DNA from: Utricularia gibba
Taxonomy: Eukaryota; Streptophyta; Magnoliopsida; Lamiales; Lentibulariaceae
Assembly (NCBI GenBank): GCA_002189035.1
Contig: NEEC01000010.1
Coordinates: forward strand, 2,666,001 to 2,730,000
Length of the DNA stretch: 64,000 nt
Direction of reading: 5' to 3'
The notes beneath the pieces are model-generated. The model was not told where the DNA came from. It searched no databases and worked only from the letters and a program-made list of their open reading frames with translations. Positions within the stretch are counted from its first letter, which is position 1; each line of letters starts with the position of its first letter. The position numbers and the translations under genes are program-made. Shown one piece after another: positions 9,312 to 43,413 of this stretch.

Positions 9312-12131
9312 ATGCAGTCGCTCTGTACGGTGATTCTCCTCTTCCTCTCTTTCGCGGTGCAGTCTCGCGGCCAGCCCCGCAGTATTTCGACCTTCCTTGT
9401 GTTCGGAGACTCCACCGTCGACTCCGGTAACAATAACTTCATAGCGACGGTCGCAAAGAGCAACTTCCGGCCGTATGGCCAGGATTTCCCGGCGAAAGTG
9501 GCCACCGGAAGGTTCTCCAACGGCAAGCTGATGACTGACTTCGCAGGTTTATAAGCCATTAGAAGGCTTTCCAATGGAAACCACTGGGTTCCAATCCTTT
9601 TCATTTTACAAGTACAATGATTTTGCTTGGTAGCCGCCATGCCCAACATTTTGTTAAGTTGACATGGAAGGAGTCAAAAACCATATTTTGCTAACATCGT
9701 ATTTGGACAAGCGGATTGAACATGCCTAACCTCATCTTTTGTCCTTTTCTATTTCGTTAGTTTCACATTTGGGGATCAAAGAGCTCTTGCCACCGTATCT
9801 GGACCCAAACCTGTCCGTAGACGACCTTAAAACTGGAGTCAGCTTCGCCTCTGCAGGCACCGGTTTCGATCCCCTGACGTCGAAAATCATCGTCGTAAGT
9901 TTTGAAAATGTTCTTCAGCATCTCTAATTCTTTAACCGTTTTAGCATTAGGAATGTTTTATGTTGTTATTGTTGAAAGTAAGAATCAAGGTGGAACGAGA
10001 TCAATTGAAGATTAAGAACACAAAAAATATAAATTATATTAAAAGAGATTAAATTTAATATACTAATAATTTATAATATTTTATATTTTAATTTTATTTT
10101 CAAATATGATATTTTTTGTTCTAATATCTGTTCTCGAGTCAAAAAGATCTTTAATTTGATTAGGGTTTTTTGTTTTTTATAATTATAATTAATACTTGAA
10201 TCATAAATTGATTTAATTTTATCTAAATCTAATACATCTCTTTTTTTTACCAAAAGTCAACCAATACGAAATCAATATTATATACCCAAGTTGTGTCATA
10301 AGTCAAATGCTCTAATATCATATTTGTAAGTATATGATAAATTGAACAAATATACGTGAAACTTAAATATATAAGAAATATAAATTATATTAAAAAATTT
10401 ATATCTTACAGATTGGCTGATTGTTAGTGATCTATATTTTATATATTAAATTATTTTATTTTAATTTGTTGATATGATATTATTTATTCTAATAATCAAT
10501 CAAACGGTCTTGTTTTTGTTTGAATCAATGAAACTGTCTAGTAACTGGATGAAGCTTTGTCGCTTTTTTTTTTTTTTTTTTACTAAGTAGAATTATTTGA
10601 GATGCAGGGCGTGATTCCAATGGAGAAGCAGCTGGAATATTTCAAAGAGTACAAACAACGGATGGAGGGTTATATCGGGAAGTCTGAAACCGAGGTTTTG
10701 ATAAGGAACGCAGCGGCGGCGCTGAGCGCAGGCACCAACGACTTCATCGAGAATTACTTCCTGCTCTCGGTACGCAACAAAACGTACTCCCTGTCTGAGT
10801 ACCAGAACTTCATCTTGGGCCTCGAGACCCAAATGATCCAGGTATGCTGCTCCCACTCTCAGGTGAATATTTTCAATCCAGTGTCAGACCAGCCGTGACG
10901 CCGTTGCAGGGAATTTTGGACCTGGGAATTCGGAACCTCCTGGTCGTCGGACTACCGTCGATGGGCTGTCCACCCTTCGTGATAACACTCGAGTCCGGCA
11001 ACTTACCCTGGAATCGCAAGTGTGTCGAATGGATCTCGGCTGCTGCCAGAGATTACAACTCTCTTCTTCAAGCCAAGCTCAATGATTTCCGAAACCGAGG
11101 AGCCAACGTTGTGTACGTTGACATCTATACTCCGTTGGATGATATCATCCAAAGGCCTCAATTTTACGGTAAGTGACTCAACTCGCCCAAGTCTCCACCT
11201 TCATACCAGGCTATATGGCAAGCTCACCTCTTTAGGAAATTTTCCATATCTTGAAAGATAAGCTCTTTCCATAACCATGAGTAGACATTCTCTAAAAACA
11301 GAAGTGGATCCCGTCCTAGGAATTTTCAAGCCCTAGATTGATATAGAGCCACCGCCGCCACTGAAGCTTCCCGCGAGTTCCAATACACCGTTGGACTCGT
11401 CTTCTCATCCTCTATCAAGTTCTGCACTTTATTTAGAGGTCAAGCTCACTTTATTTAGAGTTCAATTAGAATAAGTATAGAAATTAAGTATTGGATAACA
11501 CGCGGGTATTCCAAATTGATAATTAAAATTTATTTTATTTTTGTTTCAAGCTAATTTTTTTAAAGTGAAATGATGTTATAAAATAAATTATTAAATCTTT
11601 GGGATCGAGAAATTCTTTAAAACAACATACATATATACCTAAGGTTTTAATCTCTTAGCTTGTTTTGGTGTTTGGTTTTCAATCACATTAACCATTGTGT
11701 GCAGTCCACTCAGCCCAGTATGCATGATTCCTTACACACTAAACCTATCATAGTTTTTTAATTGATCTCATGGGTACATCTTTTTTGTGATTGATAGTTG
11801 TTTCTACACATGAAAACAGACTAAGATATGCATTGCATTGTATGATTGATGCCTAGGTTTCAATGTCGTGGATCGCGGCTGCTGCGGCACTGGAACTGTG
11901 GAGCTCGCCGTTCTGTGTACTCCACTCTCCCCAGTATGCAGCAATGCGAGCGATCATGTGTTTTGGGACTCCGCACACCCCACTGAAGCAGTGTACGGCA
12001 TCATGTTTCGAGCCGTGCTCCGACACTCCATACCTTCCTCTCACAGTTTGTCTGAAATTCTTAACATCGATGCACTGCTACAGCAACACTCCACGGCTGG
12101 GCTGCATGCATCTAATAACTGCTTCACTTAG
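9312..12131 (+). CDS. GDSL esterase/lipase, tandem copy A (C-terminal frameshift likely)
   Basis: Five exons: 9312-9546, 9761-9894, 10608-10841, 10910-11168 and 11857-12131 (378 residues as read). A signal peptide (residues 1-20) is followed by block [14 protein letters not shown] with nucleophile Ser34, then [12 protein letters not shown], the block III-like GTNDF and the C-terminal WDSAHP holding the catalytic Asp and His. It is a secreted SGNH-fold lipase/esterase; substrate unknown. Exon number and phases match copies B and C. After MFRA the reading frame stops resembling its siblings. Shifting by one base at CC 12013-12014 gives [12 protein letters not shown] and a stop at 12053-12055, matching VPALRRFYSKFV in copy C, so one base is probably missing. 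A polyadenylation signal AATAAA lies at 12153. Intron 2 holds a degenerate TRIM. Confidence 0.88.
9965..10500 (-). mobile_element. Degenerate TRIM retroelement in intron 2 of GDSL-A
   Basis: Aligns by eye with the intact TRIM at 41667-42222 in the same orientation. Both LTR 5' ends are recognisable (gatattttttgttctaata near 10125, gatattatttattctaata near 10495). The internal part matches in order: ctcgagtcaaa, aatctaatacatctctttttttt, ccaatacgaaatc, then gctctaatatcat near 10311-10323, where the intact copy has the PBS complement gctctgatacca. Boundaries are approximate because of AT-rich divergence. Confidence 0.6.
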
Positions 12132-13019
12132 AACGTGTTGAACGAGTGTAACAATAAAGTCTTCCTACAAAGTACGTGTATCTGAATAAAACACCATCAT
12201 TAAAGTTTTATTTGACTTTATTCTTTTAGAATTACTTTTCAACAAGTGATATTTGGTTGGTAAAACTTCTATTAGAAGCAATTTACATTTGATAAAATAA
12301 TTCTCAAAATAATGTTTAGTTTTTCAATTATTAATTTTCATCAGTTATAAGTATTGTTATAGTTTTTTATTTCATCCTAAATGTGATTTTTTTCAATTAA
12401 ATTCTATGAAAGTAGAATTTTTTCGGGGTGACTTTCATGATTTTTTATTTATGAAATAATTCCAATCAAACAACGTTTTTTTGAGTGTATAAACGGTTTA
12501 ATTTGATAATAAATATTATTATATTAAATTTTTAAAATAAAATTTGAAACACACATTTAATGAAGGAGAAGTAATATCGCCAGGTTCTTAAAAAATAGAG
12601 TTCTTCTTGAATTTTTGTTTCTTTTTTAAAAGATAAGTCATTCATATTTAATAATAAATTTGATTGTATAGTATTTTTTTAGAATTATGTCTTTAAATAA
12701 AATTATAAAAGAATGTGAATACCAACATTCAAATGGAATAAAATTTTAAAAAATATTATCAAATTGCATTCCCATTTTAAATGATTTTTTTCCCTGCAAA
12801 TGTTGATGCACATCCTGTAGTGTGCTCGATGTGGATTAGGCGTTCCGACCGAAGGATTACCATTAAATGCGTTTAATTAAAAGGAAAATGACTTTTTATT
12901 GATGGTGTCTGACCTGTGAATTTTATATGTCTGGACTGCTTCCCGATTTCTGGTTCATTAGTTTGGAAAGTTTACAAAAAGCAGCCCCAAGAAGCCGCAG
13001 GATGATTCCGCTCTGTGTC
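12132..13019. other. Spacer between GDSL-A and GDSL-B
   Basis: AT-rich. It begins with the GDSL-A 3' UTR and ends with the GDSL-B promoter. No gene or clear repeat structure found. Confidence 0.45.
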
Positions 13020-13026
13020 TATATAA
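13020..13026 (+). promoter_or_regulatory. TATA box of GDSL-B
   Basis: TATATAA in tgtctatataaccacac, about 60 bases upstream of the copy B start codon. Its presence shows the promoter has not decayed. Confidence 0.6.
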
Positions 13027-13087
13027 CCACACAAGCGGACTTGCAGTCAAAGCACCCAGGCATTCGTCATTTACTGCATTCGTAGCC

Positions 13088-14669
13088 ATGCAGTTGCTGT
13101 ATGCGGTTTTGCTCCTCTTCTCTTTCACGGGAAATGTAGAGCCCTGCGAACGAATATTTCGGCATTGTTTGTGTTTGGAGACTCCACTGTGGACTCCGGC
13201 AACAATGACTTCATCCCCACCGTCGCAAAAAGCAACATGCCACCCTACGGCCAGGATTTTCCGGGGAAGAAACCCACTGGGAGGTTTACGAACGGGAAGC
13301 TGATCACGGATTTCGTAGGTTGGGAAACATTATCACGACTGCGTTTTCATCTTTCCGTAGCTCTGTTTTTGAATAAAATGTCGCCCTTTTTTTCTCATTT
13401 TGATTGCGCTGTAACTTTCATTTCTCTCTCTGTTTTTTTTCACTAGCTTCGTATTTGGGGGTGAAAGAGCTAGTGCCGCCATATCTGGACCCAAGCCTGA
13501 CGATAGAGGACCTTAAAACTGGAGTATGCTTCGCCTCTGCTGCTACTGATTTCGATCCTATGACACCACAAATCCTTGTAAGTTGAATTCTTTTTGGAGT
13601 ATTTTTGATTCTTCAGTAGCTTTTTTGTTTAGTGATTGATGGTAAGAAATTGGGGAATTTTATTTGGTTGTTTTTTGAGTTCGCAGTTGACACTTGAGTT
13701 TTGCTGAATCAATTCTGGGTTCATAAAAAAAATTTTACCTTCTCATGATCAATTTGGAATGGAGACAGGGCGTTATTCCGTTGGCAAAGCAGCTGGAATA
13801 CTTCAAAGAGTACATACAAAAAATGGAGAGCAGCATTGGAAGAATGAAACCGATGCCTTGATCAGGAACGCGGCGGTGGCAATAAGCGCCGGCAGCAACG
13901 ACTTCGTCGTGAACTACTTCCTGGTTCCGGTACGGAACAAAAGCTACTCCGTGCCCGAGTATCAGAACTTCATCTTGCAGCTGCAGCAACAGTTCATCCA
14001 GGTAACTTTAAGCTCTAGAGTTTTGCTACTTTCTAGTTGCAACGTTTTTTCAGAATTCAGCAAAGTGAGGCAAAAATGCTGCGCAGGGGCTTTTGGACTT
14101 GGGAATTCGGAACATTATGGTCGAAGGACTTCCACCCTTCGGCTGCGCGCCGGCGGTCATGAAACTTGAGTCCGGCACATTACCCGGCGTTCACCAGTGT
14201 CTGGACTGGATGTCCGCCATCGCAAGAGATTACAATTCTCTTCTTCTCCCCCAACTCGCCGCTTTCCAGAAACAAGGAGCCAATGTTATGTACATTGACA
14301 TTTATACCCCTTCGATGATATCATCAAAAGGCCCCAACTTTACGGTAGGGATCTTCACCCAAGATGCTCCATTATTTCCTCATTTTCATTGGCAAAGTTC
14401 TGTTGGTGAATAATCTTCTCTGAAAAGTCTATTAAACTTTTTGTAACACGAATCCATGTCTAGGTTTCGATGTGGTGGATCTTGGCTGCTGCGGCATTGG
14501 ATCCCTGGAAACATCGGTATTCTGCAATCCAATCACCCCATTGTGCAGGGATGCGTCCAAGTACGTGTTCTGGGACTCGGTACACCCGACTCAAGCAGCA
14601 TACTACAAGGTGTTCCTCTCCTTGATCCCAGGAATCAATCGTTTCGTTTCCAAGATTACATATAAGTAG
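13088..14669 (+). pseudogene. GDSL esterase/lipase, tandem copy B, three frameshifts
   Basis: The same five-exon plan as its neighbours: 13088-13318, 13447-13577, 13769-14001, 14087-14344 and 14464-14669. All splice sites are intact, as are the key motifs ([41 protein letters not shown]). Each of three exons lacks one base. In exon 1 the signal peptide ([13 protein letters not shown]) is out of frame with the GDS block, shift within 13129-13144. In exon 3 the shift is at AA 13843-13844, between SSIGR and NETDALIRN. In exon 4 it is at CCCC 14307-14310, before FDDIIKRPQLYG. No in-frame nonsense codon or lost catalytic residue accompanies them. Either a recent pseudogene, or a functional gene with homopolymer under-calls in the sequence. 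Confidence 0.85.
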
Positions 14670-16312
14670 TCGGTGTGGTGGATTTTTCATGAGCTATTCA
14701 ACACAAACCTCTTTGAAATGAGCAGCGAACAATGAACAGCTTCTTCCAGAAAACCCCATACAAAAACAATGAACAGTCAATTGTTAGAAAAACGCAAGCA
14801 GTCAATCCATTTGAGAGATTTGTGAATATTCAAATCTGTCCCTCCAGTATTCAGGCATGCCCCAATATTCAGGCCTGCATGCTATATAAAATTCATGCAT
14901 CAGCCTCCCTGCACATGGCCATAATAATGGTGTCGTGCATTGCATCCCTGTGATTGGGTACAACCTCTGGCCCTTCCATGAGAGGTACTCCATCAAGAAC
15001 GCTGATTGCGAACACAAGTGGCGAATCGTGCACACTATTTAAGAGATTAAATTAAAAAATTTACATTATGCATGATCAATTTTTTGACACGATATCTTAC
15101 ACATACCCAAATTTCTAATTCATCTCATTGCTTTGGCCTTTAGGCAACACAGTTTGGTGAAGTAGCAAGGAGACAATAGGTGGAGGTGATGCGTGTTCTA
15201 AAGAAAAAAAAAAACCCTAAATCGCTGACTCCCACAAATCACTTGGGGTTCATCTAATTTCACTCAAGCCCTATAATAAACAATTCACGGTTCAATAGGG
15301 TTCAACGATTGTTCAATCACGCTTTTTTGAACACTAATATTTTGACATTAGACATGTTATAAGCATGTTGTTTTGTATTTATGAAATTAGTATTGTGAAC
15401 TTAATTCACATACATTTTGGTCAACATGGGTATGAGTCATGACAAAATAACACAACTTGTCTGGTATGAATAGTTACATAAGGAACATTTAACCTAACCC
15501 ATCCAAGTCTTATTTGTCTTTTTCCGGAATTAAATAAATTTTAAAAGCATTAAATGCACTCATGGAATGGAAATTGGAGGCTATTGATGGTGGGTGAGTT
15601 GTAGTGTTGGTTAATTTCAAAAATATTTATAATTTACAAATATCAATAGTTAGTCACTTGTCTAAACTTGTTAAAATCTATTTGACACTAAACCACCCAT
15701 TTTGATGGCATCTCAAAGGTAGGTTTCTAATGTCCCAACATTTGGTTTTTTTCGTTTTAAAAATCGGTTGTGTTGTCGTAATTCCAAACTCATGTGTTCA
15801 TCTTATATATGTATTTAAATAATATTTTAACATGTGAAAATGATACTAATTATGCATCTACTAGCACATGTTTATGAAATTGTATGATCTATTTGAAATG
15901 ATTTCCATTTTTATTATTAAATACGAATGATTTCTATTTAAAAAGATATAAACTTACAAATGTTTATTATGTTTAAAAACTTCAAATCCTCAATTTCTAT
16001 TTTATTAGAAAGGTATTTTGAAAATTATTTTTTAAAAAATAGAATTAAACATACCCTAATTTTCAAATGGTTGGCTCCATTGCAGTATTAGGATATTTTT
16101 ATTTAGACCATGCAACCATTGTTTGAAAACCTTAAAAATGGTCCAAACTGATTAAACAATGGTTGTATTGACTTTAATATGATTTCTATCGTAAATGTTT
16201 CAATCATGATTTTTTAAATACTACAAGCAACTGTTCATGTGTACTTCCACAATATCATGGTTCATGGGACCTTTTTTTGTCTAAGTAGATGCCCTTCTAA
16301 TCCAACTTTGTC
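14670..16312. other. Spacer between GDSL-B and GDSL-C
   Basis: AT-rich and about 1.6 kb. A fragment near 15040-15110 (aaaaaatttacattatgcatgatcaa..gatatcttacacatacccaa) resembles one near 24010-24075, so it is probably a dispersed repeat. No gene seen. Confidence 0.4.
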
Positions 16313-16321
16313 TATATTTAA
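16313..16321 (+). promoter_or_regulatory. TATA-like box of GDSL-C
   Basis: TATATTTAA about 70 bases before the start codon, in the position of the boxes of copies A and B. Confidence 0.5.
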
Positions 16322-16390
16322 GACCACACTCTCACACACAAAATAAAAGAAAAAGGCCTTCTCATCTGGTTAGGCTCTTCTCCTTCAACC

Positions 16391-18495
16391 ATGCACCTAC
16401 TCTATGGAGTTTTGCTGCTGCTCTGTACCACGGTGGACTCTCAAATCCTACATACGAATACCTCCGCCATCTTCGTGTTCGGAGACTCTTCCGTCGACTC
16501 CGGCAACAACAACTTCATTCCGACCATGGAAAGGGGCAACTTCACACCCTACGGTCACGACTTTCCCGGCCAGATTCCCACAGGAAGGTTCACTAATGGC
16601 AGGCTGCTCACTGATTTCATCGGTTAGATGCACCGGAAACACCTTCACTTTACACTGAAGTGAACTATTTCGATTCGTTAACGAGCCTTTTGATGGGGTT
16701 TTCTTGATGTATGTGTCAAAATAGCTTCCTACATGGGGATTAAAAAGCTTGTACCACCGTACCTGGATCCCAATCTGACTCTCGACGACCTGAGAACCGG
16801 AGTTTGCTTCGCTTCCGCCGGTTCTGGTCTCGATCCGCTAACATCCCAGATCACGGTAAGAATTTCACTTGGCCCAAGTTCGAAGTAGAATTTTCATACC
16901 CAGGCTCAAAACTCATCTAGAGATGATTTTTCCGTACACCCGTAATATAATATATTTTTTAATTCATCACGTCATTGGTGCTCCATAAATGGGTAGGTGC
17001 AGAAGACTATCGCCAACATGTCTCGTTGGTGATATTATAGTTCAAGAAATCGGATCTCATAAAATTAACCATCTTCAACAATAATTTTTTGTTTTAATTT
17101 ATGATAGATAATTGAGGATGACTAGATTTGTAAATGATGCATTTTTTCAACAATTTATTTTTTACTAGTACACAAATTTTCATGTTTTTCGACATGATTA
17201 TCATGCATTTTGGATCTATATTTTCTGGTTTGAAGTTGTCTTGATGTACTTTCTACCCATATTTAACTTATATATGTTAAGATCCCACAAATCTTATAAC
17301 TCTTTAGTTAGGGACCTGAAAATCAAGAACTAGTGTGATGGAATGAAATGAAGCCCTCCACAATACGAAAAAAAAAAAAAATCTTTCAATCTTCATCTTT
17401 TTCTTCTAATTTTTACTTTAATATCTTAATTTAATATTCGATGGTTGAGGTTTTTTCGATATTGAAATATTTATTTAAATATTATTATTTTCTAACAAAT
17501 ACAACACGGGGGCTTACATTTTTGTTTTGTTTTGTTTCGAATGTTCGCAGAGTGTGATTTCAATGGAGAAACAACTCCAATACTTCACCCAATACAAGGT
17601 GAGAATGGAGGGCTACTTAGGCAAAGCGAGAGCCAAAAGCCTGATAAACAAGGCAACTGCTTTTATAAGCGTTGGCACCAACGACTTCCTTGCCAATTAT
17701 TTCCTGATTCCGACAAGAAATCAAACGTACTCTGTCGGTGCGTACCGGAATTATCTTCTACGGCTGGAGCAGCGCTTCATCGAGGTATCCGTAGATTACA
17801 CTCTTAAGTTCCATAACATTCACAGATGAAAAAAAAAAAACAATTTTTTCAAGCCTACATGTAACAAAAAAATCTACTCAATCGATACGTGTCTTGTGAA
17901 TGCTTGAATTTCATCTCAGATATGAAGATATGCGCAGGAAGTTATAAATCTAGGTGTCCGGAACATCGCGGTGGTGGGCTTGCCGCCGTTCGGGTGTGTG
18001 CCGGCTTCCAAAATCCTTTACTCCTGCCAAGCCTGCAGCCACCATTGCGTTGAATGGCTGTCGGTAGTAGCACGAGACTACAACCGCTTGCTTCAATCCA
18101 AGCTTGCGATGCTGAAAACCTTGAGGGCCAACATTGTGTACCTTGACATATATCGGCCGCTGGAGGATCTGATCAGACGGCCACAAGTCTATGGTGCGTT
18201 CTTCCTTTTCATTGCAGTAAGCAATTTACTTTGAGACTCAGAGGCTGAGTCTGATTGCAAGTGCCGTGACGGGTTCGCTGCTTCATGTCTAGGGTTCAAT
18301 GTTGTGGACCGCGGTTGCTGCGGAAGGGGAGGCCTTGAAACCTCAATACTATGCGCACCGGGGACCGCGCTGTGCAGTGATGGCTCCAAGTACGTGTTCT
18401 GGGACTCATCACATCCAACTCAGGCAGCATACTTCAAGATCTTTCAATCCTTCGTCCCCGCACTTAGACGATTCTATTCCAAATTTGTGATGTAA
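16391..18495 (+). CDS. GDSL esterase/lipase, tandem copy C (intact)
   Basis: Five exons, 16391-16622, 16725-16855, 17551-17784, 17938-18193 and 18293-18495, in frame throughout, give 351 residues, the usual plant GDSL length. Signal peptide MHLLYGVLLLLCTTVDS; block I IFVFGDSSVDSGNNN with Ser33 as nucleophile; GRFTNGRLLTDF; SVGTNDFLANYF (block III Gly and Asn); GLPPFGCVP (block IV); and the catalytic Asp-His pair in WDSSHPTQ, about residues 322 and 325. It ends RRFYSKFVM. This is the reference copy of the tandem array. Exon 4 has two extra cysteines and a His pair (SCQACSHHC) where A and B read [12 protein letters not shown] or LESGTLPGVHQC, so the local fold or disulphides may differ. A secreted hydrolase; substrate not predictable. 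Confidence 0.93.
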
Positions 18496-25431: not shown

Positions 25432-28169
25432 ATGGACTCCCGGAGGTGGAAGTTTCTAAGCCCCCTGAGCCTCGTTTGCGTCGCAGTAGCGATAACGGGG
25501 GTTCGCAGCCAAGGCGTCGACGCCGCTGACGGCGGAGGAGGCGGGGCTGCGAAGAAGCTTACGGGTTTTTGCCGTGCTCGAGTAATGTGTGGGGGATGCT
25601 CTTTATGATCCTGGTTTACGAAATTCTGCTGTCCATGGCCGGCCGGTACATCGCCAGAGGGTCGGAGCTGTTCTTCCGGCTGATTGGGCCCGGAATTTTC
25701 GGCAGCAGCTTGTTCCAAATGCTCAGCACAATTCCACAGATCGTATTGGTTCTCAGTAAGTTCTCCGCCTGCAAATCCATTTCAGTTCATTTCTTTTTTT
25801 TTAACCTTGAAATGACGTCGTCCCTGAAAGTTCTGTTTGAAACGTAACTTTTGGGGAAGAAGAATCAAAGCAGGTGCAGGCGATAATAGATTCGCCACGT
25901 AGTCATAATCTAGTGGGAACTGCCATTAATTAAACTCGGGAGTGTACGTATATCCAAATTTATTTTGTTTTAATTGTCTTTTATTTCCTCTTATTTTAAA
26001 TTTAGGATTTTTTTTCCAAAAATATTACTCCATTTAATTTTACACGGAATTATATTTTTTCATGTATTAAATTATTTGTCTCCTTTATTTTACTGCCTGT
26101 ATAATTATCCAATATTTTATTATAAATATTAAATAATATTTGATTTTCTAAGTAAAAAATGAAAGAAATAAATTATCATACACATGGGTGGTTGAATAAT
26201 TGATTAAAAATTGTGATATTAAAGAATCTTGATATCATGTAGGTGGTTGTCACTTGTCACGTACTGAGTAAAAATTATTAAAAAGTCAAGGGGCAGGTCT
26301 GCAAATTTTGAAAAAAAGGCACTTTTTTGTTTTTTCTTTAATATATAGATTTTGAACTTTTAAAATTAACATTTTTATATATGGATTATAGCTAACATAA
26401 AAGAATTTACTTTCTTAAATAGAAAAAAGATTTAAACCCTAAGATTGTGTTTGGTTTATGGGATTATATGGATTGAAAAGTAGATTATAAATTATATGAT
26501 ATATAATTGATAAATTTAAATAAACTCGAGATTACACCCGTTTTTTTTTTTAATCTCATACTTGTTTTGTGTGCAGTGGGTTCTTTTACCGTCTCCAAGG
26601 AGGCGGCTGTACAGCAAGCGGTAAACAGTGTGGGGCTGGTTGTCGGATCGACGGTGATGCTTCTAACGCTTGTTTGGGGCATCTCGGTGATCGTGGGAAG
26701 CTACAATCTCGCAGAGGCCATCTCCAGCGATGATTCAACTGAAACCCAGGGATTACACGGTAAATACTTAATAGTCCTCATGGTAAAACTGGAGCCATCT
26801 CATGTTAGAATGGTTTTCGCCACGCAGGCTATGGCATCGTCACCGACGCAGAGACGTGCTTCACTGCTAGGCTGGTGCTGGTATCCATTGTCCCTGTGAT
26901 TTTCTTGGTGCCTGCAGCAGCAATCTCTTCATTAGTGGTGCAAAGGATTGTAATTCTTATTGCGCTCATCATCACCCTTGTGTTGCTCATCGGTTACTTG
27001 TTTTATGAGGTAACCAATCTTGGCATTTTTTTCGTGTGTATTCTTATGCCGATGCTTGATTGTTGTGAATGTCACAGATTTTTGAGCCATGGGTTCATGA
27101 ACGGAGATTCGAGTTCCTGATCAGGAAATACACGCACAACAGGCTGCGTACGCTTCTGTCCACCAACGGCAGGCCTGATGTTAATAAGATACAGCGGTGA
27201 GATCTTGTACGATTTGCAGGGCAGTGATGACTGTGTGGAGGCGACAACTGAATTCTTGTTTTATAGGCTTTTCGACAGCTTAGACGGGGACAAGAGCGGA
27301 TCAGTCTCTGCAAAGGAACTCAGGGTTCTTCTCTTAGGAGTGAAGGCTAGTGACGGCCTGAACACCGAGAAAGATATTGAGGACATCATGGAACTATTTG
27401 ACACGTCCAATGACGGACGAATAGACCGTAACGAGTTCGTACGAACAATGACGAAACTAGTCTCCGATCTCTGGGAGACATCTCCGATCGACTGGCACTC
27501 CAGAAAGTCACAGACAGGTGAACTGCAGCAGCATTTGCTGTCCACGGGAAAGAACCAAGAAAAGAGAAGCCACGTCTTGTTGCAGTACTGTAGGGCATTG
27601 TTTTTGGTGATCTCAGGAACGGTGGTCATAATGTTGCTGGCAACGCCGCTGGGCACCACCGTCTCCCAGTTCGCGCAAGCGGCGCATCTGCCGGCGTTTC
27701 TGGTGTCGTACTTCGCTATCCCGTTGGCGGTGAACTACGGCATGGCTTCCCAGTTCATCGTCTCCGCCACACAGAGGTCCAGGAAGTCCATTTCTCTCAC
27801 ACTTTCATCCGTAAGCTTCTCCTCCCTACCTCTTTACATCAAATCTGACATAAATAGAATATACCTAGCTTTCACCTAACAAACATTACATAACTTGATT
27901 TGGTTCAATGTGTTGGTCAGCTGTACGGCACCGTGTACATTACCAACATCGTCGGACTGGTATCGTTCTTGGTGCCGGTCTACGTACGAGATTTGCCGGT
28001 GAATGTCATTGCAGAGGCGGCGGTTTCGTTGGTGGTATGCCTTGTGATGAGCTGTGTGACCAGCTTTTACACCAGGTTTCCACGATGGGTTGGGTACCTG
28101 GTGCTGCTCTTCTACTTCATCTCGCTCGCTCTCATCTACGTTCTGACATCTGTTCTCCACTTCCCCTGA
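25432..28169 (+). CDS. NCL: EF-hand Ca2+/cation exchanger, NCL type (one-base frameshift in exon 1)
   Basis: Six exons: 25432-25755, 26577-26759, 26828-27009, 27078-27196, 27267-27810 and 27921-28169; about 533 residues if the lost base is allowed for. A signal peptide (MDSRRWKFLSPL..) is followed by several hydrophobic membrane segments with the exchanger motif LVVGSTVMLLTLVWGISVIVG. A cytosolic loop has two EF-hands (DGDKSGSVSAKE and DTSNDGRIDRNE, all ligand positions present), then a second membrane half. This is the layout of Arabidopsis NCL, a vacuolar Na+/Ca2+ exchanger-like protein. Between KKLTG and PCSSNVWG the frame slips at TTTTT 25566-25570; six T would restore FLPCSSNVWG as in homologues. 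Intron 4 is only 70 bases, and its readthrough frame is open, which can mislead gene callers. Confidence 0.85.
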
Positions 28170-29016: not shown

Positions 29017-30687
29017 TTAAGAGTCCCATATGGGGCCAAAGGCCGGGATCCCTGCCGCCCAGCAAGCGCCAACCACGTCTCGTGTTCCCTCAGGATTGCT
29101 CGTGACGATCACAATCTCGGCCCCGAATCTCTTCGCCGTGTCGACGGTCATTTGCGGCACGTTTGGCCTCCCGAGCAACGCTGTGTCGTGCAGGATGTTC
29201 TTCTCCGGCCGGCGGCTCATCCACTCCATGATCTCTTTCCCGAAGTTCTGTTCCATGTTCTTTGCCACCCAAAGAACGCAGATGTCCGCTCTACAAGGCT
29301 GCAGTTGGAAAGAGAGAAAGGGGCAGATTCCGGAGCCTGTGGCGACATGCAGAACCCTATTGTACATGCTTGTCAAATAGGGAAGCCCCGCGAAGTGCAG
29401 CTGCCGGACCCAAAGATGGCTCGGTGGGTTTGAAACGAGGGATTTCGTGAAGTCGCCGACGGCTCCTGCAAGAATGACATGCTCCTTCTTGTTGTCGGAG
29501 ATGATTCCGAAAGCGTGCCATTCGGAGAGCGGTGAGGGGCTGATTCTGCCCAGGATTCCGGCTCCAACTCCTCCTGGGAAGGTGATCACCGACGCATGAC
29601 CGGAAGGTGAATAGATCTTGATGGGAACTTTTCTCACCGTCAGCCAAGGAAGAATGATTAGTGCAGTGATTCCAATGAGGAACCAGAACTCTTGCCTCTT
29701 CGCCAACTCGGATCCCAAATCTCTGCTGTTATATGATCTGGTTGCCGGGTCGTAAGCAGTCGTCAGACATATGAAGATCCAGACAAGAACCAGACTTGTC
29801 CAACCGGCGAAACGGTGAGTTCTCTCGAAAACGTTGTGATGAAGGTGACGAACAAGCGGAAAAGCGGCGATACAGGAGAGGCAAAGAAGCGCGAGAATAG
29901 CAGAAGCGACTCCAATGATCTCAGGAGATGTATTAGCTCTATCCCTCAATGTGAGTACCAGCGCGTAAATCAGCCAAGCTACTGATGAAATCCCGCAACC
30001 GCTGTGTATGCCGCCTACAGATTGAAGAACCGCCGTGGTCGCCAATTTGAGACGCAGCGGAACCACCGGGTACCCAAGAATCTTCACGGCAAGCCAGAAG
30101 ACGACCCGGAAAAACGCCTCGTTGCGGCACAACACCAAAGCGAATATATTGGCGACGGAGAACGCAACAGCGTTCCTTCTAGCGTAAGAGAATCTTCCGA
30201 CGGCGGCGAGAACGAGGCAGGCCATATTGATAATGAAGGAAAGCGCGAAAAGCCTCTTGTAGACGGTGAACAGTCCCTGATCCAAAAGGATAACCGACAG
30301 CCTCGAGGAATCATGTTTGTTGGAGCTCGGCTTAGGCTGCTGGGATTTGGATTTCGCCAGTGGCAGCTCCGACAGTTTAGCGTCAGCCACGTGATTGTTG
30401 TCTTCTTCGCGGCCTTCCTCAATGTGCGCCAGAAAATCATCCTCATCACTCTCCTCCCCCTCTTCATCGTCAAGATCGCAGAAATGGCTGCTAGATCTAC
30501 GACTCAGGGAGTTCGGAGCTAGCGACGCCGAAGAAACAGCTCTCGAGATACGCTTCCAAATCCGTTGGCTCCTTGGCACCTCCACCTCCATTGGCTTCAC
30601 CACCGCGAAGAGGTCGGCATGGGGCTTGATTTCAAAAGCCACCCCTCTGCAACTAGAGAAACGGGTCACTTTTCCCTCGAGCTCCAT
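29017..30687 (-). CDS. Membrane protein with ferredoxin-reductase-like C-terminus (adenylate-forming-reductase-like)
   Basis: Single exon, 556 residues. The N-terminal 130 residues are soluble, with an acidic stretch (DLDDEEGEESDEDDF) and Ser/Lys-rich linker. Residues about 135-360 hold several hydrophobic helices (FALSFIINMACLVLAAVG, ANIFALVLC, WLIYALVLTL, AILALLCLSCIAAFPLV, FAGWTSLVLVWIFICL, FLIGITALIILPWL). The rest looks like a FAD/NAD(P)-binding module: ITFPGGVGAGILGRIS, the nucleotide-binding turn VATGSGICPFLSF, and DICVLWVAKN. Plant relatives are usually annotated as adenylate-forming reductase 06235-like because the same membrane-plus-reductase module is fused to fungal adenylate-forming enzymes; here the adenylation domain is absent. 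A role in membrane redox chemistry is inference. TATA box at 30751-30760. Confidence 0.85.
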   Translation of the reverse strand: MELEGKVTRFSSCRGVAFEIKPHADLFAVVKPMEVEVPRSQRIWKRISRAVSSASLAPNSLSRRSSSHFCDLDDEEGEESDEDDFLAHIEEGREEDNNHVADAKLSELPLAKSKSQQPKPSSNKHDSSRLSVILLDQGLFTVYKRLFALSFIINMACLVLAAVGRFSYARRNAVAFSVANIFALVLCRNEAFFRVVFWLAVKILGYPVVPLRLKLATTAVLQSVGGIHSGCGISSVAWLIYALVLTLRDRANTSPEIIGVASAILALLCLSCIAAFPLVRHLHHNVFERTHRFAGWTSLVLVWIFICLTTAYDPATRSYNSRDLGSELAKRQEFWFLIGITALIILPWLTVRKVPIKIYSPSGHASVITFPGGVGAGILGRISPSPLSEWHAFGIISDNKKEHVILAGAVGDFTKSLVSNPPSHLWVRQLHFAGLPYLTSMYNRVLHVATGSGICPFLSFQLQPCRADICVLWVAKNMEQNFGKEIMEWMSRRPEKNILHDTALLGRPNVPQMTVDTAKRFGAEIVIVTSNPEGTRDVVGACWAAGIPAFGPIWDS

Positions 30688-34641: not shown

Positions 34642-35719
34642 TCAGGCAACTGGATAAGATGCATGCATTGCGATGCCACACTTCCCTTGAGCGCCATTCA
34701 TGTTTCTGGGCATCAAGATGTAGCCATTCGATCCCCAGTCCGTACCCCATGAATTCTTCACGATCCAATACGGAGTCCCCTTGGCCGAGCCGTACCCGAC
34801 AACGGTGACACCATGATCCAGGTTTGTCCCACAAGATGCAGTGAAGATTCCACCAGAATACAACTGAAAATCTCTTCCTCTTGCATCAATGGCCACCGAC
34901 ACCGGCTGATTTGCCACCGCCCGCATCAAGGCGGCTTCATTGTTCTCCGGCACTTCCACATAGCCGCTGATGGTGGCCGCCACCGGAGAGGTTCTCAGCA
35001 TGTTGCAAAATGATTGTCTGGCTCTGTACGGGTAGTTGGATTCCGTTGTGATCCCGAATCTTTGAATGTATTGGAATGCATTGGTCATTTGCCCGCCATT
35101 GCAGCCATAGTCTTTTGTTTCACAGTTGACCAGCTGTTGCTCCGACAAGGAGACGAGGTTGCCTGATTTGATCTTGTGGATCCCCTCCACCGCCGCCACA
35201 GCCGAAAAAGCCCAGCAACATCCTACATACATCCAATAACTTTCTCTAATTCAAACGTAAAAGAATTGCATATTCTATTTCACAGTCCAAGTTACCGCAC
35301 TGCCCTTGATCCTTGACAGGAGTAACCGCTCCCTGAGCTCTCCAATCTACGCTCCAAGGAACCGGTGATGCTCTAAGATTCTCATCGTAGGAGACACTTC
35401 TTCTTGTAGCATTATGCGGCTGGACGTAGCCGTTCATGGCTGCTCGAAACTCTTCGTTTGTAAGATCAGCGAATTTGTTGGCAGCAAGCTTGTAAGAGTG
35501 GCCAGCTGCGTTGACAGAGTTGATATACTCCACATTGCTTTTAAAGATCGAAAATCTCTCAGCCCTCTCGACATCATCTCTGTAAACACGACCGTATTTC
35601 GCCATCCACCCCTCGTGCATTCTGATCATCCCGGCGTCGAGGGTTCCTTCCACATCCGCCTTGCATGCAAACGGGACAACGAGCAGGAGCAACGAAACCT
35701 GGACAAACTTCAGCCCCAT
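34642..35719 (-). CDS. Papain-like cysteine protease 1 (SAG12/bromelain-like)
   Basis: Two exons, 35719-35296 and 35222-34642, give 334 residues. Signal peptide (MGLKFVQVSLLLLVVPFACKA), then the inhibitory I29 propeptide with the ERFNIN pattern (ERAERFSIFKSNVEYIN) and the conserved prodomain stretch NKFADLTNEEF. The mature enzyme starts near WSVDWRAQGAVTPVKDQGQC. Oxyanion Gln is in DQGQC, the catalytic Cys is residue 144, His is in NLDHGVTVVGYG and Asn in IVKNSWG. It lacks a granulin domain and a KDEL tail. The active-site box reads CGCCWAF instead of the usual CGSCWAF, so the catalytic Cys is preceded by another Cys. Family members are vacuolar or secreted proteases active in senescence, defence and fruit or latex. 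The intron falls in the active-site Gly codon, as in copies 2 and 3. Confidence 0.94.
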
Positions 35720-35776
35720 TCCAAGACAGGAGGAGGAGGATGTAAGAATTGCGGTTTGCCCGAATCCAAGCGCCGC

Positions 35777-35784
35777 ATTTATAG
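35777..35784 (-). promoter_or_regulatory. TATA box of protease 1
   Basis: CTATAAAT within gctctataaatgcg on the minus strand, about 60 bases upstream of the start. Copies 2 and 3 have almost the same box (ctctataaataag, ctctataaatacg). Confidence 0.75.
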
Positions 35785-36082
35785 AGCTGCCCACTATTAT
35801 GCACACTAATACCCTACCGGAGGGTTCATTGCGTCATAGTTACCGCACTTAATGCCCTAATAGTAGGTAAAACTTCGATGCTTCGTGCCCAGAAAACTCA
35901 AACTATAACCTTTTTTTTTACCGTTGAATGTCCCAGATGCAGTTAGTCATTAATGCGTCATTTAAAAAGTAATCGTGGTTTTATGTTTTAAGTACTAACA
36001 TCAATTTTTTACACATAGAATTATCATTTTTTTATCACACACTAAAAGTAAAATAGTATTATTATTTTTATCACACTAAAAT

Positions 36083-36380
36083 ACTGTTTTAGAAAATTTT
36101 TAAAGTTTATTTGTATTTTTTAAAAAATAAAAATAATTTTATTCTATATCAATATTAATTGTAAAAATAATTTTATCAAAAATAATTTTAAAATTACACT
36201 ACAAAAATTATTTTTTAAAAATAAGGAATAGATTATTTTTATATTTTATTTCTAATTTTATATTTTATTTTTACAGTTTTCTATAATATTTACAATCTAT
36301 TTCTATTTAGATTAATTATTTTTATTTTTTTAAAATAATTTTGAAAAAATAGAAATAGATTCGACAAATTTTTCAAAATG
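36083..36380. mobile_element. hAT-like MITE, copy 2
   Basis: Same family as 24322-24548 in the opposite orientation. The inner stretch taattgtaaaaataatttt..caaaaataattttaaaattacactacaaaaatta matches the reverse complement of copy 1 almost base for base. The outer ends (ctgttttagaaaattttt and the inverse of cattttgaaaaatttg) form imperfect inverted repeats. It is somewhat longer than copy 1, with an AT-rich inner expansion. Confidence 0.55.
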
Positions 36381-36932
36381 ATATTAAATTAAGATGGTTA
36401 GTTTTCTAATTTATACTTAGTTAGAGGAGTAAAAAAAAGTCTTCCTATAGTAATGACGTTAAATGATGGGGATAACTTTAATGCATACATTAATTCCCTT
36501 AATAATCGTATGGAACAGTATACATTTCTACTCAAAAAATACCAACAATCTAGAATTCTTTTTTTATTATTATTATTTTATTAAAATCGAAAAAAACAAT
36601 CAAACAAAACCGGCTTGCGGCAGAGAAGGTGGGCGATGCCGGCATGACTTCTAGTGTATAGATCACTCCGGTCGACAAAGGCGGCCGGTCCAACCCACCT
36701 GAGAAAAATTAACATCGCCAAAACCAGAGGCCGCCTAATTGCCACCACGGCCGGCCGGCCGGCCGCCCAATTGACACCGGGAATGTCTAAGACCTAGAAA
36801 TGGAAAATGGAACGCAGGCCTTTTAGGGTTACCCCAGGAATCTGATCTAGAAAAAGGGTTTGTTGAGGAAGATGATCCACGAAATATAAATTTTATTAAA
36901 TATTATTTGATACAATCTGGAGACTTTTCAAC

Positions 36933-38366
36933 TCAAGAAGTGGAAAGTGTGAGGAAATCATCGATGAATCGGCCCAGAAAATGATCCGACGGCTCTTGTT
37001 TCAGCAGAGCCTTCCTGCTCTTGTCCTTCAAATCTTTGACTTTGACTCGTATTGGATTTTCCAGATCCATCAACTCAATGATAGCAGTGCTGATCTTCTC
37101 TGCCGGGATAACCACACCGTCGCTACGCCGGTAATCGATCTTAATCTCCACCGCCATCTCAAATTCCTTCACCAGCTGAAACGCATTCGCCTGTTGTTCT
37201 GCCCCCAGCGGCCACGTCGCCAGAGGAACGCCGAACCAGACGCTTTCCAGTGTCGAATTCCACCCACAGTGAGAAACGAAGCCCCCAACCGCGGGATGAT
37301 CTAAAACTGCTATCTGCGGCGCCCATCCGATGACTTTTCCCCTGCCCTGTGTTCGATCTAGAAACCCTTCCGGGAGAACGTCTCTGTGGTTCTCGTACTC
37401 TGTTGGGAACCCGACTTGCCCTTCCGGTGGCGGCCTTCTTAAAGCCCATAAAAAGCGGTGACCGCTAAGCTCAAGCCCGGCGGCGATTTCCTTCACTTGC
37501 TCCTCCGGGAAGGCACCGTTGGAACCGAAACAGAGGAACACGACGGAGGAGTCCGGTTGCTCGCCAAGCCAACTGATAATCTCATTGTATTGTGGCTTGG
37601 ATCTCTCAGCTTCGTCGGGACCGTTCTGGAGAATTGGCCCGACGGGGTAAAAAGGCGGCAGCTCGCGGTCGTCCCAGAGCCCCTGGATTGCATAGCTCTC
37701 AAAATCAAGAAAAGTGTTACCCAGAATTCCTCTGGTTCGTCGGAATCCACGAATCATCTCAAAGAACATCGTTTCCATTTGTTCGTGAAAGACTATTTCC
37801 GGCCAAACAGTGGGCGGAACTGGGTGTTTATAACCAGGAATCGTCACTGGTTCAGTGGAATTCTTGTATTTCAAGAACCCATCTACTTCTCCGAGGGCGT
37901 GGATACGAAACATGAGCCCAAGAACCGCAGCGCCACAGGTGAAAAACACATACGCTGGGATGCCCAATTCATCGGCTACATCAATCATGGGGGTACAAAA
38001 CATATCAATCACGAATCCCGCCGGAGAATTGGTCTCCCGCCGAGCCAGTATCTCACCTACAGTGTCTCTTACCGCCGGCTTCAGGCTCTCAATGAACTTT
38101 AGGATGAAAGCTGGTCCAATTTCAGTGGGCTTTGCACCTTCCTTAGGAGAGATCTCGATGAACTTTACCGGGGAATTGGATGAGGAATTGTTGATATAAG
38201 AGGACAAAGATATGTTGGTTTCCACGGGGAGTTTAATCACGAGAATCGTAACCTCGAGAGTGTGGTCGCGCTCCGCAAGGAGCTCCGCCTCCTTGACGGC
38301 GGCGACGAGATGGCTGATCATCGGAAAAGGGATAAAGAACAAACTTCCCCTCTTTGCGGAAGACAT
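36933..38366 (-). CDS. UDP-glycosyltransferase (UGT71-like, family 1)
   Basis: Intronless, 477 residues from the ATG at 38366. An in-frame ATG at 38444 would add 26 residues ahead of the usual N-terminus, so I prefer the inner start. The N-terminal box GSLFFIPFPMISHLVAAVKEA contains the catalytic-base His (SHL), and VIDMFCTPMIDVADELGIPAYVFFT is the usual partner-Asp region. The PSPG sugar-donor box, residues 348-391, begins WAPQIAVLDHPAVGGFVSHC, contains GWNSTLESV, and ends GAEQ with Gln last, as expected for UDP-glucose. Family members glucosylate flavonoids, terpenoids or hormones; the substrate cannot be predicted. It sits between papain-like proteases 1 and 2 in the same orientation. A 16-base C run lies about 150 bases upstream. 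Confidence 0.94.
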   Translation of the reverse strand: MSSAKRGSLFFIPFPMISHLVAAVKEAELLAERDHTLEVTILVIKLPVETNISLSSYINNSSSNSPVKFIEISPKEGAKPTEIGPAFILKFIESLKPAVRDTVGEILARRETNSPAGFVIDMFCTPMIDVADELGIPAYVFFTCGAAVLGLMFRIHALGEVDGFLKYKNSTEPVTIPGYKHPVPPTVWPEIVFHEQMETMFFEMIRGFRRTRGILGNTFLDFESYAIQGLWDDRELPPFYPVGPILQNGPDEAERSKPQYNEIISWLGEQPDSSVVFLCFGSNGAFPEEQVKEIAAGLELSGHRFLWALRRPPPEGQVGFPTEYENHRDVLPEGFLDRTQGRGKVIGWAPQIAVLDHPAVGGFVSHCGWNSTLESVWFGVPLATWPLGAEQQANAFQLVKEFEMAVEIKIDYRRSDGVVIPAEKISTAIIELMDLENPIRVKVKDLKDKSRKALLKQEPSDHFLGRFIDDFLTLSTS

Positions 38367-38518
38367 CTTCTTTCTTTCTTTTTCTCCCCCTCCGACGACC
38401 TCCTTTAGATGCGGATGAGGTGCTGTAGAGCAGACGAGAGACACTTGAATTTCTACTAGTGCTCTCTCTCGTCACCTCCCACTTAAATGGCAATCATTTC
38501 TTGGACCACCAACACTAT

Positions 38519-38534
38519 CCCCCCCCCCCCCCCC
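38519..38534. repeat. Poly-C tract (16)
   Basis: Sixteen consecutive C on the plus strand, in the upstream region of the UGT gene. Confidence 0.9.
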
Positions 38535-39654
38535 GGCATGAAAAGACAAGATTGCCCTCATCAACACTGTTCCTTCGGGCTAGCAGAGGGTTACTGGGTC
38601 CAGGCCCAAATCACAAAGGAATCGACCATACAATAAACTCGTATTTGATATACAAACAAATGTTTATTAGACATAATATATGATGTATAAAATATTTACC
38701 CATCATAAAAATTCAATTAGATATCCCTCACACAAATAGTTAGTATATTATATATAAAGATGATTATTTTTTACAAACATATAAATGAGAATAGTTATTC
38801 TTCAAAATAATCCATTTACTTGTCTGCAGGAGCAAAGTTGATAGATACTATGTTCAAGACCTCCTCGTCAAATCATAATATTCCGAACATATGCCAATTT
38901 TCATTCTTATTGAAAATCGAATTGATTCTCGAAAAATATTTCCGAATGTATTCTATATCTCTATTGTGGAACTAAGGCATATGAAGTCTATGCAAAGCAA
39001 AAGTAGGATACACAATCCATTTTTAACTCAACGCTATGCTTACCTACTCCACTTATTGAATAGGTGCCATTTTATAAGGACATGGACTCCTGCCTTAGTG
39101 AGACCGCAATATAGACATGGACTATAGGTTTAGAAATTTCATTTTTGGATGCCACATTCTAGTTTAAATTTATTAGTATTTTTATTTTAAATATAAATAT
39201 TTAAATATATTTAATTATAATTACCAAATTTGAATAATTTTTAAACTATACAATTTTTAAGAAACTAAATTGATTAATTATCCATTCCTTTAAATTTAAC
39301 ATTTCAAGCATGTTGATTCCTCCCAAATAACTAGCGAATAGAAATTTTTAGAGGTTAGTATATTAATATATTTAAATATAACATACTCAATTATAGTTAA
39401 TCTTTGATATCCAAAAATATAAATTTAAGTATGTAAATAATATAATATAATTAGTCCCTTTTTCCATTTTTATATATCACCCCTATACTCAAAAAATGAG
39501 TATGTAAATGAGATAATCATATAAGACTAACATATGTATACTAATATGCTTAAACTTAAATATAAACTTTTTATACGTGTAAATTTGACTTGGAAATGAA
39601 TAACCAGAGCTTCTTTGTAATTGTGACTTGATAACAAAACAATCAACAAGTGTA
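38535..39654. other. Spacer between the UGT gene and protease 2
   Basis: AT-rich, no supported gene. The short frame at 38891-39127 looks random. Confidence 0.45.
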
Positions 39655-40739
39655 TTAAAGAGTTGGATAAGAAGCGGACATGGCGATTCCGCAGAGTCCT
39701 TCAGGTTTACCGACGTCCCTTTTCATCAAAATGTATCCTTTATCGCCCCAGTCGTCTCCCCATGAGTTCTTGACAATCCAGTAGTTGTTCAAATGGGCGT
39801 CGACGCCGTACCCTACAACCAGAACACCGTGGTCTAAATCCGTCCCGCAGGGCCCGGTGAACACTCCGTGTGAGTAGAATTGGAAAGCCGATCCACTGGA
39901 GTCAATCGCGACGGACACCGGTTGACTTGCCACGGCGAACGCTAGGTCAAGCTCACTGTTTCTGGTAACATCCTCGTAGCCGGTGATGGCGGCGTGGTTG
40001 AAGTAGCCTTCTACTGGTTTGCAGGATGACTGTTGTGGAGAATACGGGTAGTTGGATTCGACGGTGATCCGATTGTTTGCTATATATTTGAACGCATAGT
40101 CCATTGAACCTCCACTGCAGCCTTCATTGGGCGGCGAGTCGCAGTCAAGCAGCTCCTTCTCCGATAACGAGATGAGAACCCTCTCTTGATTGCAAGGATC
40201 CCCTCCGTAGCCCCGACTGCGGAAAAGGCCCAGCAGCTACCTGCATGTGTAAAACCCGTTATTCCCAGGATTTGACCCTCCCTTAAAGAAACAATAAAAC
40301 AACTACCGCAGTCGCCCTGATCTTTGACAGGGGTGACAGCTCCCAAATGTGTCCAGTTGACGTAAGGAGGAAGATGCATCAGATTCATGTTATGACGGCG
40401 ATTCACAGGGGTGCCGGTGAGCGACTCCCTTCTTCTTATATACCCATTCCTGCGGGCACGAAACTCGTCGTTGGTGAGATCGGCGAACCTGTTCGCGGCC
40501 AGCCTGTAAGAGAGGCCGGCTGCATTAACAGAGTTGATGTATTCCACGTTGCGCTTGAAGATTGCGTATCTCTTAGCATGCTCTTCGTCGTCTTGGTAGG
40601 AGCGGCCGTATTTGGCCATCCAGCTCCTGTGCACTCTTACCATCTCGGCGTCAGGGGTTCTCCGACCCTCCGTCTCCGAAGCCAGTTGAACAAACAAAAA
40701 GAGCAGCGCGGAAAGAATGAAATTCCGTGCCATTCTCAA
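39655..40739 (-). CDS. Papain-like cysteine protease 2 (frameshift in exon 2)
   Basis: Two exons, 40739-40307 and 40240-39655. Signal peptide (MARNFILSALLFLFVQLASETEG), I29 prodomain (HAKRYAIFKRNVEYINSVN, ANRFADLTNDEF), mature start near VNWTHLGAVTPVKDQGDC. The intron splits the active-site Gly codon; joined exons give CGSCWAFSAVGATEG with catalytic Cys147. Further on are the His (TDLDHGVLVVGYG) and Asn (IVKNSWGDDWG). Exon 2 is one base short: after LAIKRG the frame shifts at GGG (plus-strand ccc 40179-40181), and one more base restores LISLSEKELLDCD and GCSGGSMDYAFKYI, aligning with copies 1 and 3. No other lesion is present. The second ATG, at 40733, is an equally good start. TATA box at 40786-40794. 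Confidence 0.85.
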
Positions 40740-40785
40740 CTGCTCAGAGAATGTAGGGATGCGATTGCAAGGGCTCTGAGTTTCT

Positions 40786-40794
40786 TATTTATAG
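40786..40794 (-). promoter_or_regulatory. TATA box of protease 2
   Basis: CTATAAATA on the minus strand, within ctctataaataag, about 50 bases upstream of the start; shared by the three protease copies. Confidence 0.7.
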
Positions 40795-40911
40795 AGAGAC
40801 ATCGTACATAAAAGGGCGGAAAAGTTGACGAAGGCAACATTATAAAATTGAAATTCTGCGTAGCTTAGAGCAGATTTGCGTTGATTATTTTTATTCTAAC
40901 TATTATAATAA

Positions 40912-41345
40912 ACAATTCGATATCAACATTTGAAAGTTAAATAATAAATATATAAAAAATTAAAGATCAATTATAATTTAGATAAATTAATATTTTTTAA
41001 TGTAATTCACATTTTTTTATATACTTATACTTCATATATGTTTATCTTATTCATTAAATAGTTAATTTCAATATTATATCAAAATGTTTTACTCAATACA
41101 TGACTTGGATGACCAATACAAGTTTCATGTTTATCAGAATTTCGGTTAAAAAAACAAATAAATACATTAGATTTAGATAATAAAAATTATAAAAAAGCAT
41201 GTAATAATCTGATCAAATACAAGTTCAATTTGATGGCGGATATCGAAATAAATAATTCTATAATTTAAAGTAAAATAATTAAATATATGATAAATTAAAT
41301 TTTTAATGTAATCTATGTTTTTTATATATTTGTGATTGTTTATGC
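40912..41345 (+). mobile_element. Degenerate TRIM retroelement
   Basis: Plus-oriented relic of the TRIM at 41667-42222. An LTR-like start (aataaacaattcgatatcaac) is followed by a decayed PBS region near 41071-41085. Internal words match in order: catgacttggatgaccaatacaagtttc, aaaaaacaaataaatacattagatttag, ataataaaaattat, ttcaatttgatggcgg. A second LTR-like part begins near 41239. It lies between protease 2 and the intact TRIM. Confidence 0.55.
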
Positions 41346-41666
41346 AAATAATTATTCCATTTTTGTCGATAATATTAAATTTGAAGGCGTGACTCTCATC
41401 GAGAACAAAAAAACAATTTTTCTAACTATTTTTCATCGATGCAGCACCACTGTCATAAATAGACAACGAAAACACTTTCTAACTAATAATACGGAATTAG
41501 AGATTCACTGCAGATTAAAAATGACAACAGACTACGGGTATGTTTGATCTCCAACAGTTTGGGTGAGAGCAGGACCAGGTGGACAGGGACTTATTACCAG
41601 TGGAAAATGGTTGAACTTAGACACTAGAATAACGATCAGTATCAATGACATGTAAATGCTTCCGAG

Positions 41667-42222
41667 TGTTGAAATTCAGGATCCGATGGGTCGGGCGAGC
41701 ACGCACGTGAAGTCCAAGTACATAAGAATTGTGAATTATAATAGAAAAGATTAGACCCAACCAATTACTTATGATATGTAGTTTTTTATATACTAGACTA
41801 TTCCACATTCATTTTTCAATGTGTGATTGCGTATTCTAACACCTGCCCTCAAGTCAAACTGGTCTGTGATCCGGTGATGACTTGCTCTTTTTTTTTGTGA
41901 TTGTAGGTAATGCTCGGATCATAGGTCGATCTAATTTTTTGTCGCCTAAGTCCAATGCATCTCCTTTTTTTTTTAATCAGGCCTGAGACCAATACGAAAC
42001 CCATCTTGACCACCCAAGCCGTGCCGCAAGGCAAACGCTCTGATACCATGTTGAAATTCAGGATCCGATGGGTCGGGCGAGCCCGCACGTGAAGTCCAAG
42101 TATATAAGAATTGTGAATTATAATAGAAAAGATTATACCCAACCAATTAATTGTGATATTTAATTTATTATATACTAACTATTCCACATTCATTTTTCAA
42201 TATGATATTGTGTATTCTAACA
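41667..42222 (-). mobile_element. Near-intact TRIM (terminal-repeat retrotransposon in miniature)
   Basis: 556 bases, two direct LTRs: 41667-41842 (176 bases) and 42049-42222 (174 bases), both running tgttgaaattcaggatcc to attctaaca, so TG...CA in either direction. On the minus strand the 5' LTR is followed immediately by TGGTATCAGAGC (42037-42048), the classic primer-binding site for initiator tRNA-Met. A purine-rich tract, TTGAGGGCAGG (41843-41853), lies just before the 3' LTR. The internal region is only 206 bases and codes for nothing. Flanking pentamers are ccgag (41662-41666) and ccgat (42223-42227), a target-site duplication with one mismatch. LTRs differ at a modest number of sites. 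The insertion is 91 bases beyond the stop of protease 3. Movement must depend on proteins from another element. Confidence 0.9.
42037..42048 (-). other. TRIM primer-binding site (initiator tRNA-Met)
   Basis: TGGTATCAGAGC on the minus strand, directly adjoining the LTR end; identical to the PBS of many plant LTR retrotransposons. Confidence 0.88.
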
Positions 42223-42313
42223 CCGATAAGATGATTCGATAAAGCATTTTAGTGCATTATTTTGCTGTTCCAGACACCCATCCAGTGTCAAAACATTTTT
42301 GTGGCGTGCGCCT

Positions 42314-43413
42314 TCAGGAGGCAATCGGAAAAAAGGCAGACGCAGCGACTCCACAATGTCCTTCAGGACTTCCATCGTTTCGCTGCAAAAAGAAGTATCC
42401 ATTCTCCCCCCAGTCAACTCCCCATGAGTTCTTTATGGTCCAGAAGTCATCCCCGTCGTCACTAGTGCTGTATCCGACAGCTAGAACAGCATGGTTCAAA
42501 TCTGTGCTACAATTTCCTGTGAAAACTCCACTTTCATAAAACTGAATGCCTGATGCATCGATGGTCACCGATACGGGTTGCCACGCTACCGCAATCATCA
42601 ACGCTTCCTCATTGCTGTCAACGGCCTGGTAGTCGGAGATGTTGACGACGCCCTGAGATGCAGCATCGGCGTTGCATGTTTGATTGGTTCCTGCGTATGG
42701 ATAATTGTCCTCTGTTGTGATTCCATACTCTTCGATGTATTCGAACGCCCCTGCCAGTGACCCGCCTTGGCAACCATAACCTTCAAATTCAGTATCACAG
42801 TCAACAAGTTGCTGTTCTGATAACGACACAAGATTTCCGTTGGCGATGGCGTTGATCCCTTCTACTGCTCCCGCTACTGAAAAAGCCCAGCAACTACCTG
42901 CATAACCAACGGCTATTGTTAAACATTCTTCTTTCTTTCTGGGGAAGAAACTGAACTATTCACACAAAAGGGGAGGCAAGAACTGACCACAACTTCCCTG
43001 ATTCTTCACATCAGTGACAGCTCCATTTTCCCTCCAATCGACCTTGTCAGGGACTTCGTCTAGACTTCTGTTTCCATGGCGTGCCAGCGTAGTAGTCTTG
43101 TGTGTTTTCCTTGCTGCTACGTATCCGTTCAAACGAGCACGGAATTCCTCGCTTGTTATGTCAGCAAACTTGTTCGCAGCTAGCTTGTAAGACAGACCCG
43201 CCGCATTAACAGAATTGATGTACTGCACATTGCGCTTGAAGATTGCAAATCTATAAGCGCGTTCTGCTGCATTTCTGTAAACACGGCCATATTTTGCCAT
43301 CCACCCTGATGCATTTTCATCATCTTCGCATCAGGGGCTCCTCCAGCCTCCGCCCCGAAGGCGATCGTCATTAGCAGCACGGCAGTGGCAATGACAAACC
43401 GCACGGACGCCAT
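42314..43413 (-). CDS. Papain-like cysteine protease 3 (frameshift in exon 1)
   Basis: Two exons, 43413-42988 and 42897-42314; 336 residues once the missing base is allowed for. Signal peptide MASVRFVIATAVLLMTIAFG, I29 prodomain (AERAYRFAIFKRNVQYIN, ANKFADITSEEF), mature start near VDWRENGAVTDVKNQGSC. Active-site box CGSCWAFSVAGAVEG, His in STDLNHAVLAVGY, Asn in TIKNSWGVDWG; the GCxGG turn is GCQGG. In exon 1 the frame breaks at GGG (plus-strand ccc 43304-43306): protease 1 has GGGG at the same place (EGWMAKYGRVYR), so one G is missing here. All else is intact. TATA box at 43486-43494. The TRIM lies just past the stop codon. Confidence 0.86.

Follow-up and report, generated by a model that had tools for sequence, protein, structure and literature searches.

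Seven one-base frameshifts interrupt five genes in a stretch of the Utricularia gibba genome, and we conclude that most of them are very probably errors of the assembly consensus and that the plant itself most likely carries the affected genes in intact form. The stretch (the window, 64,000 nucleotides; C304:2666001-2730000) comes from an assembly of 100.1 Mb in 516 contigs; a published long-read assembly of the species has 101 Mb and a contig N50 of 3.4 Mb (PMC6265445). The sequencing was most likely done with PacBio continuous long reads without accurate short-read polishing. A long-read consensus of this kind would drop single bases, mostly in short runs of G/C and in longer ones of A/T, and dropping them about once per 4-5 kb would break reading frames regardless of the gene. 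Such errors would account for the direction, size, context, and rate of the events and for their presence in essential genes.

One-base losses in five genes of the window

To judge reading frames, we used a purpose-written protein-to-DNA aligner that allows introns and one- and two-base shifts, with paralogs from the same genome as queries. Its shift penalties are symmetric, so one-base gains are as easy to detect as losses. The sites in GDSL-B, protease 2, and protease 3 were judged in this way, and those in GDSL-A and the NCL-type gene by three-frame reading.

GDSL-A, a five-exon GDSL esterase/lipase gene (9312-12127, plus strand) delimited by alignment and exon boundaries, goes out of frame by one base near 12013 (CC), downstream of the catalytic Asp-His motif, and its C-terminal tail resumes in the frame expected from a one-base loss there. 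This frameshift touches only the final ~15 residues; in four paralogs the tail is likewise short, about 20 residues beyond HPT. Intron 2 of this gene contains a dispersed repeat (10005-10500) with many ~70% identical copies genome-wide. The tandem paralog GDSL-B, also with five exons (13088-14669, plus strand), has three one-base-short frameshifts, which the alignment placed at 13130, 13844, and 14312 (sites 13129-13144, ~13843, and ~14307-14312). The first lies in the variable signal-peptide region, where its position is bracketed only, and the second is at AA, a run of two. Alignment showed the catalytic motifs to be retained in both genes. The third tandem paralog, GDSL-C (16409-18450, plus strand), has an intact frame and served as an internal control.

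The gene at 25433 to at least 28000 (plus strand) has EF-hand domains by Pfam, and we take it to be an NCL-type Na+/Ca2+ exchanger-like gene, a name that comes from the first-pass annotation and from resemblance to NCL sequence. On three-frame reading, a conserved stretch picks up one base short past TTTTT at 25566. DNA searches of the assembly found no further copies of the gene. An NCBIfam match to XopAW was rejected as an identity for it, being weak, far under the cut-off, and a reflection of the EF hands only. Farther along, an intact open frame of 556 residues on the minus strand (29020-30687) had no Pfam or NCBIfam match.

Three papain-like C1A cysteine protease genes follow, all on the minus strand and delimited by alignment: protease 1 (34642-35806), whose frame is intact, protease 2 (39655-40733), and protease 3 (42314-43413). 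The latter two are each one base short at a GGG run, at 40179 and 43304, respectively, and both retain the catalytic Cys, His, and Asn. Protease 1 reads GAGGGGTGG, against CAGGGTGG at the homologous place in protease 3, that is, GGGG against GGG, as the first-pass annotation had pointed out. Between proteases 2 and 3 lies a dispersed repeat (41667-42223) present in dozens of copies, parts of which reach 88% identity. Its two similar ~170-bp ends enclose a short middle that contains TGGTATCAGAGC, the primer-binding site typical of LTR elements, and the layout suggests a miniature LTR element (TRIM). Beyond the three genes of the window, tandem arrays of C1A proteases were seen at C375:1429260-1492681 (about 15 genes) and C480:382948-399504 (about 6).

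The first-pass annotation had listed these seven frameshifts in five genes, all of them one-base losses explicable as homopolymer under-calls, accompanied by no in-frame stop and no lost catalytic residue. The alignments to paralogs and the three-frame readings together bear out the sites, with the letters agreeing at their coordinates, and all seven lack one base relative to intact relatives, a one-sidedness that would arise in 0.8% of cases were gains and losses equally frequent. The aligned regions of the frameshifted copies contain no in-frame stops. The homopolymer context is the part that needs qualification: it holds at four sites, but 12013 (CC) and 13843 (AA) are runs of two and the site at 13129-13144 cannot be placed on a run at all. 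No frameshifts were found in GDSL-C, protease 1, or the window's UDP-glycosyltransferase, V-ATPase D, and aspartyl-protease-like genes. An apparent eighth frameshift, of opposite sign, in a DUF688-type gene with overlapping open reading frames (56526-57678) was rejected, as the gene has two exons and the break at 57124-57200 is a GT..AG intron.

The same losses in essential genes

One-base losses of this kind recur well outside the window. The aligned coding sequence of 26 C1A protease genes amounts to 28.2 kb. Seven of these genes had a clear frameshift that was one base short, and in none was one base too many, which gives a coding rate of 1 per 4.0 kb; five of the seven sit outside the window. 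In the exon tables for HSP70, HSP90, and cellulose synthase, parsed for abutting matches in differing frames, ten clear one-base-short junctions were found (five, four, and one, respectively) and no gains. The runs at these junctions, assigned by eye from the three frames, were as assembled GGG, CC, GGGGG, GGG, CCC, TTTT, CCC, GGG, CCCC, and TTT. Junctions of opposite sign in the cellulose synthase and chaperone tables carried 58-89 surplus bases; these are introns that the profile ran through, and such junctions were left out of the count. All 15 clear frameshifts outside the window are thus one base short, and with those of the window the count comes to 22 coding events, 22 losses, and no gains.

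Essential, conserved genes (HSP70, HSP90, and cellulose synthase) are therefore affected as well as dispensable ones, and the one-sided dropping of bases, judged by coding frame, is what a consensus error would leave. Since essential chaperones cannot be broken so often, the losses in them point to assembly error.

Two breaks of ambiguous size were excluded from the count, one in a variable region of the protease L033, near position 1344, where it can be read as -1 or +2, and one in an HSP70-type gene at C304:2236276. The latter is common to two contigs and does not fall in a homopolymer, so some frameshifts in this genome may be real. The gene (C304:2235549-2237462) shares the identical frame break with its counterpart on C241 (L068), the two contigs diverging further on, and it is a candidate for a real pseudogene.

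Disagreement between duplicate contigs

The assembly can also be compared with itself. Parts of C244 and C321 recur in the small contigs C245 and C377, respectively, and C451 carries an inverted copy of about 10 kb; together these gave 39.7 kb of duplicate stretches (C245/C244 twice, C377/C321, and the inverted repeat in C451). Between the copies there are 18 single-base indel columns, of which two are adjacent, and only 1 substitution, so two versions of one DNA disagree almost entirely in single-base indels. By contrast, C304 and C241, which are truly diverged copies, differ by 18 substitutions to 4 indels; this pair had been considered as a further duplicate stretch and was rejected, being a diverged copy beyond about 2.1 kb. 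A ratio of 18 indels to 1 substitution is unlike biological divergence, and we therefore read the duplicate-contig differences as assembly error.

Of the 18 indels, eight lie in G/C runs of 3-5, where about 1 would be expected; runs of at least three G/C bases account for 5% of the sequence (enrichment P about 1e-6). Some losses fall at runs of one or two. The concentration in homopolymers is thus seen among the duplicate-contig indels, and three of the seven window sites fit it poorly. Over 30 kb there are seven places where it is the large contig, C244 or C321, that has the shorter copy; the contigs alone do not tell which member of a disagreeing pair is correct. The rate, 17-18 per 79 kb or one error per 4-5 kb, agrees with that in the protease coding sequences. 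DNA searches of the assembly found no other contig with a copy of any of the seven window sites.

The arms of the C451 repeat (5640001-5649687 and 5652662-5662349) are inverted copies of each other over at least 9.7 kb and differ by one base; the duplication is either a palindrome of very recent origin or an artefact of assembly.

Pseudogenes, alleles, and other readings

With the recurrence of the losses in essential genes, the duplicate-contig indels, and the signs of purifying selection described below, the proposal of systematic assembly error, suggestive when argued from the seven sites alone, has become a strong case. We think it fairly likely that all seven window frameshifts are errors, and for any one particular site error is what we infer. 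The likeliest exception is GDSL-B, which has three events in a 1.1-kb gene against about 0.25 predicted by the mean rate. That GDSL-B is a real, recent pseudogene in the GDSL tandem array, with the other four genes carrying assembly errors, is an alternative that we consider unlikely.

A broader version, in which real and recent inactivation by small deletions has made pseudogenes of some of the five genes or of all, as dispensable tandem copies, appears distinctly improbable. The GDSL and C1A genes are indeed tandem duplicates, a setting tolerant of loss, the three frameshifts within GDSL-B fit such a history, and the HSP70-type break shared by two contigs shows that real frameshifts may occur in the genome. 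However, DNA search found no second copy of the NCL-type gene, the essential genes suffer the same losses, and a search of the frameshifted copies for other marks of pseudogenes turned up one-base losses only, with no stops, no gains or losses of mixed size, and no lost key residues. Pairwise dN/dS between the frameshifted window copies and their nearest relatives was about 0.12-0.27, like that of intact pairs, with dS near saturation in most pairs; this indicates purifying selection and gave no sign of relaxation, in a test that is weak for very recent loss of function.

It is also conceivable that the sites are heterozygous or population variants, the broken allele having been assembled by chance, since diverged extra contigs such as C241 indicate that some alternative haplotypes or paralog arrays do get assembled. 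True variation consists mainly of substitutions, though, whereas the overlapping contigs differ by little but indels, and chance null alleles would be needed in several essential genes; we regard this explanation as very improbable. Frameshifts that are real in the DNA and bridged in the cell, by programmed frameshifting or RNA-level repair, are extremely improbable: the conserved downstream frames would fit and nothing more, the events vary between paralogs and sit at unrelated positions of unrelated genes, and we know of no such general system established for plant nuclear genes.

Assembly error is thus the preferred reading, and it has close precedents. In a PacBio assembly of azuki bean made with Quiver, conflicts with short reads were mostly homopolymer indels, 91 of 91 Sanger-checked sites were assembly errors, and the errors, if uncorrected, would have disrupted the reading frames of more than 1,000 genes (PMC4663752). 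As in that assembly, single-base indels far outnumber substitutions here, centre on homopolymers, and break many plant gene frames. Short reads and Sanger sequencing established the azuki bean errors, whereas those of U. gibba are deduced from duplicate contigs and essential genes, and the U. gibba runs, unlike those of azuki bean, are in many cases short (two to five bases) and often G/C. The cases treated with Kastor, gene-fragmenting errors called as pseudogenes, are likewise frameshift-only and caused by homopolymer deletion errors, but they come mainly from nanopore assemblies of bacteria with small genomes rather than from a plant nuclear genome (PMC12007338). In the literature searched, we found no account of such indels for the U. 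gibba assembly. Public RNA-seq is available under bioprojects PRJNA595351 and PRJNA354080, as listed in PMC10663240.

Implications for gene-loss counts

The caution urged in the first-pass annotation is upheld: pseudogene calls that rest on one-base losses in this assembly should be withheld. The losses described here are an ordinary artefact, and their use is as a caution. About a quarter of the sampled protease genes (7 of 26) appear broken in this assembly, and counts of gene loss, pseudogenes, or tandem-array turnover taken from an unpolished assembly would mislead, in a small carnivorous-plant genome rich in cysteine proteases for which the counting of gene losses is a live topic.
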